Source of the DNA: Isoetes taiwanensis
Taxonomy: Eukaryota > Streptophyta > Lycopodiopsida > Isoetales > Isoetaceae
Direction: 5' to 3'
DNA length: 64,000 nt
NCBI GenBank assembly: GCA_021234155.1
Contig: JAJEKV010000131.1
Location: forward strand, 1,078,380-1,142,379
Part shown: piece by piece, positions 19,875 to 21,164 of the stretch
Numbering within the stretch: position 1 is the stretch's first letter
Layout: each line of letters opens with the position of its first letter
Notes under the pieces: model-generated
Databases searched by the model: none
What the model saw: only the letters and a program-made list of their open reading frames with translations
What the model was told of the DNA's origin: nothing
Translations under genes and position numbers: made by a program

Positions 19875-21164
19875 ATGGCCTGTGACGGAAGTAAACCGCC
19901 GAAGTTCCTCGACTCAGGAATTGCCCAAACCCCATGATCCTAGCCCGACATGCAGGATGCTTCAGAGCACCTTTTCAACCAAAGGGACCTGTGACTTCAT
20001 CGAAGCGAGGGAGCACTCTAAGAGCACCGGTGAGGAAGGATCTCAGCAGGAGGAGCACAGACGGGGAGACCAGCGTGGCGCATCGAGAAGAGGGAGGCAC
20101 CTTCGCACGCAGGGACGTGAGCTGCTCAAGAGGAAGAGAGGAGCAGAGCGAGAAAGAGAACCAAGGCTCGCGGAAGAGCAGGATCACCACTCCGAGCCAC
20201 TCCATCGACGAACAATTCAAGCCCGATTCAGCAGGAAGGAGGCAGAGGGAGCAAGAAGAATGAGGGGAGCCAATGCCGAGCCAAGCGAAGAACAGACCTC
20301 CCGGGCTAAGCAAAAGAACGCCGCCGGTGAGAAGAAGAGAGCAGAAAAAGAGAAGAGGGAAGAGGAGGAGGCGAAAGCGGCCAGGAGGCTGAAGAAGAAG
20401 AAGGGGAAGTTCGCGGGTGGGCCAAAGAAAACTCAAGGAGGTTCCACGTAACAAAGACCCCCTAACCCCAATCTCGCTATCATCGAATCGATCACCGATC
20501 AGCCCCCCTCCTCGACGATTCTCCGGATGAAGACTTCAACCCCAACATCGAAGGTGGAAGTTCTTCTAAACCCCTACCTGATGAGCGTGCAATACCCGGA
20601 CCCGAAAGAAAGCCGGATCAAGCGCCAGAAGCCTCCACCATATCCGGACTTGGGGATGAAGAAACAGCCCACGGCCTGCCCGAATCCCTATGTGACAGAC
20701 CCCATCAAGATCTACGAGAGGAAGATGAGGGGAACACAATGCTTACATGAAGAAGTGGGAGGCTTACAACCCCTACTACCAAAGAACAGGTCGATTATCG
20801 AGGGTGGACGGCCCAACAAAGCAGCCAGACCTTAAGGCGCCACCACGAAGCCCAAGCACCCCAAAGCCAGCCAAGAAGAAAGCCAGCCAGAAAGGAGGCC
20901 GAGAGAAGAGCACTCCAGGGAGATCAGGCACTTCCAGCGCAGCCGGTTTCTTAATCCCTCGTGCCCCTTTGCCCGTCTAGTTAGAGAGGTGATGCAAGAC
21001 TTTAACACCGGATGCTGCTGGCACTGCAGGAAGCGGCCGAGCAAAAGATAGTGCAGCATTTTGAAGACTCCACAGCTTGCACCGTGCATGCCATTGCCAA
21101 GCGAGTAACCCCGATGAGAAAGGATATGCAGTTGGCTAGTATAATCAAGGGAGATCCCCATTAG
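19875..21164 (+). pseudogene. Histone H3-like gene carried in the chromovirus
   Basis: The ATG at 19875 sits in AAACATGGCC. A frame change near 19940 leads into about 170 very basic and acidic residues ending KKKKGKFAGGPKK, then about 100 proline-rich residues, then a tail-like PKPAKKKASQKGGREK. From 20917 a histone H3 fold follows: SREIRHFQ (alpha-N), FLIPRAP and FARLVREVMQDF in neighbouring frames (alpha-1), then RMLLALQEAAEQKIVQHFED (alpha-2) and CTVHAIAKRV with MRKDMQLASII (alpha-3), ending TAG at 21162-21164. Loop 1 is missing about eight residues. The REIRHFQ form suggests the CENH3 type. Canonical H3 is about 136 residues, so the long N-terminal part is unusual. It has its own TATA box and lies before gag. 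At least three frameshifts are seen, which may be decay or read error. Confidence 0.75.

Follow-up and report, generated by a model that had tools for sequence, protein, structure and literature searches.

A chromovirus family of Isoetes taiwanensis with a histone H3 domain encoded upstream of gag

Introduction

Multiplication of a histone H3 gene by a DNA transposon has already been published, and the nearest precedents for the element described here, a chromovirus with an H3 fold found in a stretch of 64,000 nucleotides of Isoetes taiwanensis (contig JAJEKV010000131.1; this whole stretch is hereafter the window), are an H3-bearing hAT transposon of a fungus and the histones of viruses. In Pyrenophora tritici-repentis, according to the accessible part of PMC3538342, an H3-like gene (H3L) is multiplied by a hAT element, a DNA transposon with terminal inverted repeats; 26 very similar H3L genes are reported, and no fused N-terminal domain is described there. 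The Isoetes family shares with it the spread of an H3-like gene by a mobile element, and differs in consisting of long terminal repeat (LTR) retrotransposons whose subfamilies have diverged and whose H3 has been under long-term constraint. A hAT-borne H3L type was ruled out for this family by its LTR and gag-pol structure, and no hAT domain occurs in the frames scanned. As for viruses, the accessible part of PMC9145170 covers bracovirus H4 and H3 in large DNA viruses, which resemble the present case as host-like histones encoded by a parasite, one of them N-terminally extended, and differ from it in being carried by DNA viruses; retrotransposons and retroviruses are not mentioned in that part of the text.

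Regarding plant elements, chromoviruses have in common with the Isoetes family the LTRs, the Met-tRNA-type primer site, and the order of capsid, protease, reverse transcriptase (RT), RNase H, integrase and chromodomain, whereas the Isoetes family adds two open reading frames (ORFs) before gag: ORF1, which contains the H3, and ORF2. A Phalaenopsis Gypsy lineage with an AlkB/2-ODD ORF (PMC9289625, accessible part) is comparable as a host-type domain fixed in a Gypsy lineage, the domain being a different one; among the nine of 15 extra domains named in the accessible part of that survey of 121 angiosperm genomes there is no histone. The accessible parts of reviews and of a screen of extra ORFs and captured genes in plant elements (PMC7264820, PMC13317346, PMC9289625) name no histone domain, and the word "histone" is absent from the accessible text of the I. 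taiwanensis assembly paper (PMC8566536). In the open literature, at the level of titles and the beginnings of abstracts and with most subscription papers outside it, no report of a histone within an LTR retrotransposon was found.

Among database proteins, a search with only residues 320-430 as the query gave 17 matches, and another gave 52 matches with query coverage of at most 68%. A set of H3-fusion proteins from ENA (P0001-P0005, P0009-P0014, P0016 and P0017) is similar in having a long N-terminal part, a C-terminal H3 fold and many diverged entries, with N-terminal parts that look unlike that of ORF1; these proteins may represent further mobile H3-fusion families in other hosts. Nearly all of them form single-member clusters, and P0014 starts with MARTKQTARK.

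Organization and distribution of the family

The I. taiwanensis assembly (1,658,258,908 bases in 1110 contigs) was searched for histones with Pfam, and the best 150 of 8705 first-look candidates were scored: the first 15 were host H3 genes, and the other 135 had open frames of 108-494 aa. Of the latter, 22 were fetched, ten as pairs of 10-kb stretches, four through the search itself and eight as 1.5-kb pieces. The best-kept copies read LTR, primer site, ORF1 with a C-terminal H3, ORF2, gag-pol, chromodomain and LTR, an arrangement that moves as a unit, is present in many copies and is under constraint. In the intact relatives gag-pol comprises capsid, zinc knuckle, protease, RT, RNase H and integrase, and the chromodomain follows the integrase. 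ORF1 is made of an element-specific N-terminal domain (N-domain) and the H3 and, where its start is readable, is about 410-460 aa long; ORF2 has 443 aa in L032 and 462 aa in L030. An extra ORF outside gag-pol and between the LTRs is thus common to the copies. In one place (G000:C1030:8716624-8719139), gag begins just 249 bases 3' of ORF1, and ORF2 is seemingly missing.

LTR pairs were recognized in six of ten loci, and TGGTATCAGA stands where the 5' LTR ends in seven of the ten fetched relative loci. Because all six LTR-paired loci carry direct repeats of 5-6 bp at their ends, the H3 gene travels with the element. The Kimura two-parameter distance (K2P) between the LTRs is 0.020-0.031 in five of these six relatives (L021 was left out of the range, its matched stretch extending beyond the LTR); since the value for the window pair is 0.087 (1270 ungapped sites), the five relatives are younger than the window copy.

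The H3 part is not confined to the window copy, the case that the original prediction had set against itself. A 442-aa ORF1 query taken from one copy was used to score the best 95 of 12627 candidates, and 91 of these 95 places span the N-domain into H3, 78 as one match reaching at least residue 402 of 442 and 13 as two pieces; 40 of the 82 one-match ORF1 places have no internal stop. With a 300-aa gag query, the best 131 of 15702 candidates were scored; these candidate totals are loose and are not copy numbers. A listed ORF1 (95) or H3 (135) place lies at most 15 kb upstream on the same strand for 29 of the 131 gag places, and in 26 of these 29 the distance is 2.39-3.06 kb. As controls, a single gag place had such a partner downstream on the same strand, and a single one had it on the opposite strand. 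Four gag loci lacking a listed partner were hand-picked for reading, two for high identity and two for long frames; the N-domain and H3 were at the expected place in three of them, and in one (L055) the frame is open over 438 aa. The H3-bearing chromovirus is therefore present in many copies and is not a one-off.

Finally, with the window LTR as the query, 42 matches at 40 scored places were obtained. Three sisters of the window copy (L050, L051 and L052), chosen for having two LTR matches 9.7-11.3 kb apart, were read 3' of the 5' LTR; in L052 the H3 fold (PF00125, E 6.9e-28) lies in an open frame.

Conservation of the H3 domain

Selection was examined on 20 H3 cores of 92 residues each (190 pairs). 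The 107 pairs with a synonymous distance (dS) above 0.05 had a median dS of 0.83 and a median ratio of nonsynonymous to synonymous distance (dN/dS) of 0.045; in another 75 pairs dS was saturated, with a median dN of 0.11. The comparison of these cores indicates that the element H3 is kept by strong purifying selection, as the original prediction had asked of the family. In contrast with the core, the N-domain drops to about 30% identity between subfamilies, and its dN/dS, for pairs among ten copies with a readable start, is 0.09-0.35 where computable.

These values bear on the possibility that a host H3 fragment was captured as a passenger and amplified with the element without any function. 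Plant LTR elements are known to capture genes (PMC7264820, accessible part), and the frame is broken or the fold absent in the window copy, L050 and L051, as expected of such cargo; the low median dN/dS with many saturated synonymous distances, the core being kept while the N-domain diverged, and the long open frames all speak against it, and this explanation, largely refuted, has very little probability left. A recent insertion of a host pseudogene, which the original prediction had named as fatal to its proposal, does not fit the many copies and the purifying selection either.

At the residue level, 60 of the 92 core positions are invariant in the 20 copies and the same as in host H3. Invariant too are the H3-H3 contact residues C110, H113, R116, D123, L126 and R129 and the DNA-contact residues R69, R72, R83, K115 and T118; R63, another DNA contact, is kept in 19 of 20. 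An alternative role has to be weighed here, namely that the H3 fold acts in the retroelement particle as a module for cDNA condensation or nuclear import and never in host nucleosomes. H3 binds DNA and has basic tails, ORF1 lies 5' of gag in the same element, and the Q/E-rich linker with the N-domain could be an assembly module; however, the invariance of the H3-H3 pairing residues goes beyond the needs of non-specific DNA binding, and gag already has its own capsid and zinc knuckle, which makes this role unlikely.

Origin of the H3 domain

A tree of 42 rows separates the 20 cores by a branch (89/92) and puts them beside the canonical H3 of the host. In this tree, which lacks host CENH3, the window subfamily has a long branch (0.96) with a weak attachment to the CENH3s (87/56), and the second H3 of the window (11819-12081) is another long branch (1.04). 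CENH3 has a longer loop 1 than canonical H3: in the open frame of L052, loop 1 counts 18 residues between RLVRE and LQEAAE, as in canonical H3, against 19 in the single CENH3 compared (Acorus, P0044).

The original prediction considered the fold centromeric, and the corresponding scenario is an element guided to centromeres by a centromeric H3 that it captured or mimicked. The weak joining of the window subfamily to the CENH3s is in its favor; the position of the 20 cores of the other subfamilies beside host H3, the canonical length of loop 1 and the length of the window-subfamily branch are not, and the scenario is highly improbable. From tree and loop, the element H3 looks canonical rather than centromeric. 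A single capture from canonical H3, followed by faster change in the window subfamily, is the likely origin; two separate H3 captures may alternatively have occurred.

As for the N-terminal end, residue 5 of ORF1 is a lysine, as in H3 (MARTK), in 15 copies whose starts were picked by eye, a count that excludes the window copy, whose start is decayed. This suggests that the H3 tail gave rise to the ORF1 start, with the N-domain as an insertion into H3. In L051 the start reads MARTKQTAR and then V, that is, the first eight H3 residues after Met with V in place of K9, and V replaces K9 at the ORF1 start of L052 as well. A loss of K9 and K27 across all subfamilies was considered and not adopted: it appears only in an alignment by eye, MAFFT gives another register, and an ARKS motif upstream in L037 weighs against it.

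The L051 start is one of the points in favor of a decoy, in which H3 would tie up H4, histone chaperones or methyltransferases and weaken silencing without lasting incorporation; a constrained fold with a bulky extension would also suit a dominant-negative protein. In the abundant subfamilies, though, the tail is not confidently alignable, so that loss of silencing-related residues is without support there, and we regard a decoy as doubtful, somewhat more so than a particle protein.

Possible role of the ORF1 protein

Considering the evidence as a whole, the ORF1 protein appears most likely to serve as a nucleosomal H3 that bears a large extension at its N-terminus and benefits the element via chromatin. 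The family has as its first gene its own N-domain joined to a constrained H3, and we favor, with reasonable though limited confidence, a protein that pairs with host H4 and enters nucleosomes as an extended H3 variant helping the element. In this mechanism, H3 would have been captured from canonical host H3 and then fused to, or split by, the element-specific domain. The ORF1 protein is predicted to be made, to enter the nucleus and to be built into chromatin, with element DNA as the most likely site. Nucleosomes there would be read differently because of the large N-terminal extension, and element copies would stay transcribable; alternatively, the extension would steer the element's own chromodomain-bearing integrase. 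Incorporation of a comparable protein has a precedent in a bracovirus H4, whose tail is extended and which becomes part of host nucleosomes (PMC9145170, accessible part). The element H3 may mark or target chromatin, much as the original prediction put forward, and it may shield the element from silencing. A more speculative extension, for which we see a modest chance, is that the lineage possesses both halves of the chromatin code: its own H3 would mark and its own chromodomain would read, and insertions would thereby be labeled, protected and found again.

Several observations weigh against the nucleosomal explanation. Regarding the searches, four of the 95 scored ORF1 places end before or early in H3, and 102 of the 131 gag places have no partner among the ORF1 and H3 places listed, which is no evidence for or against an H3 there; among the four picked gag loci, the frames of L053 and L056 are broken and L054 shows no ORF1. 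In the window's own subfamily, the expectation that copies collected with the LTR would have H3 present and open held for L052, the only one of the three two-LTR sisters to keep an open H3 fold. It failed for L050, with no H3 fold in the stretch read, and for L051 (C1071), which has the ORF1 start and where, by deletion, integrase C-terminus-chromodomain sequence replaces H3. Identity between the H3 of this subfamily and host H3 is 48/87. The 20 cores used for dN/dS came from the best-scoring histone matches, a sample that favors conserved copies; because synonymous sites are saturated, selection along the lineages is still needed despite this lean. Finally, the N-domain and ORF2 have no recognized relatives.

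The window copy

The original prediction of a chromovirus with an H3 fold 5' of gag and between two LTRs was borne out by Pfam, PDB and LTR alignment: positions 17735-28931 are an 11.2-kb decayed Ty3/gypsy chromovirus (Table 1), whose two LTRs share alignment blocks that are 78-91% identical. We take its primer-binding site to be of the initiator-Met-tRNA type. The H3 fold gave PF00125 matches with E 4.6e-6 (20896-21048) and 7.4e-6 (21006-21161), both just above the Pfam cut-off, and the top PDB matches of its segments were H3 chains (E 1.8e-5 and 8.9e-9). A six-frame scan of the window with a profile of H3 relatives returned four strong segments that correspond to two H3 loci, the 20917-21161 region and 11819-12081.

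The ORF that had been predicted at 19875-21164 stands as a decayed ORF1, because sister copies start their ORF1 at the place that aligns with the ATG at 19875; it does not stand as an open gene, its frame being shifted and the H3 fold divided by frame shifts. The window copy is unable to make the protein, as no open ORF1 remains. The start of the putative ORF2 matches the ORF2 profile weakly (hhalign, 89 columns, E 0.0013, probability 18.7), and its C-terminal part (23160-23387) gave no match. In pol, a large internal deletion makes the RT jump into the integrase C-terminus, and RNase H and most of the integrase are missing.

Pairs of strong 72-nt hairpins flank ORF1, and the motif recurs in L050, L051 and L052; in the leader of some copies from other subfamilies, GC-rich inverted repeats of a different kind occur. 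A role of the hairpins in translation or packaging of the multi-ORF RNA is possible.

Table 1. Coordinates of the chromovirus and of the second H3-like sequence in the window
Feature	Position	Strand	Evidence
5' LTR (TGTGACGT...ACGTCACA) of the chromovirus	17735..19221	+	K2P vs 3' LTR 0.087
Primer-binding site TGGTATCAGACC	19223..19234	+	TGGTATCAGA where the 5' LTR ends, 7 of 10 fetched loci
72-nt hairpin repeat, 5' of ORF1	19409..19480	+	RNA fold z -5.8
72-nt hairpin repeat, 5' of ORF1, degraded	19596..19667	+	RNA fold z -2.9
Decayed ORF1: start region, basic/acidic N-terminal part, C-terminal H3 fold	19875..21164	+	
Histone H3 fold in two frames (20917-21009, 21012-21161)	20917..21161	+	
72-nt hairpin repeat, 3' of ORF1	21305..21376	+	RNA fold z -7.5
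72-nt hairpin repeat, 3' of ORF1	21505..21576	+	RNA fold z -8.3
Probable decayed ORF2 (second accessory ORF)	21888..23390	+	first ~90 codons only, weak profile match
gag remnant	23889..24356	+	tblastn vs intact gag-pol E 3e-9
Protease and partial RT	24700..25879	+	tblastn E 1e-50
Integrase C-terminus and chromodomain (Pfam Chromo ~26421-26579)	25850..26612	+	tblastn E 3e-65; PF00385 E 1.6e-10
3' LTR, last bases decayed	27526..~28931	+	alignment to 5' LTR
Second H3-like sequence (11819-11914, 11947-12081)	11819..12081	+	PF00125 E 1.7e-7 and 5.5e-9

Other features of the window

The second H3-like sequence belongs to a decayed stretch at 11146-12081 with the motifs RHFQ, QEF and KRVMVMPKD and with an N-terminal part unlike ORF1. 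Between 4000 and 17700 no LTR pair was found other than that of a TRIM-like element; the protein database gave nothing for the second H3-like sequence at E<=0.01. An H2A-H3 doublet at 11416-12081 was considered and discarded, as Pfam H2A_C reached just E 0.11 and PDB searches gave no H2A.

The TRIM-like element (10775-11117) has 122-bp LTRs at 10780-10901 and 10991-11112 that are 99% identical, a TGGTATCAGAGCC primer site and a TTGAC target duplication. A long interspersed nuclear element at 44766-50878 has long open frames of 747 aa and of 1291 aa, the latter with endonuclease, RT and zinc domain; it seemingly lies inside another chromovirus, which continues from about 51491.

Significance

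Histone gene counts could be misled in genomes that harbor such elements. Retroelements are usually viewed as targets of histone-based silencing, and a family whose own H3 has stayed strongly constrained across several subfamilies would instead be an active chromatin player. Such a family would allow a direct test of whether retrotransposons write nucleosomes of their own and, with a chromodomain in the same element, self-recognition becomes a concrete question.
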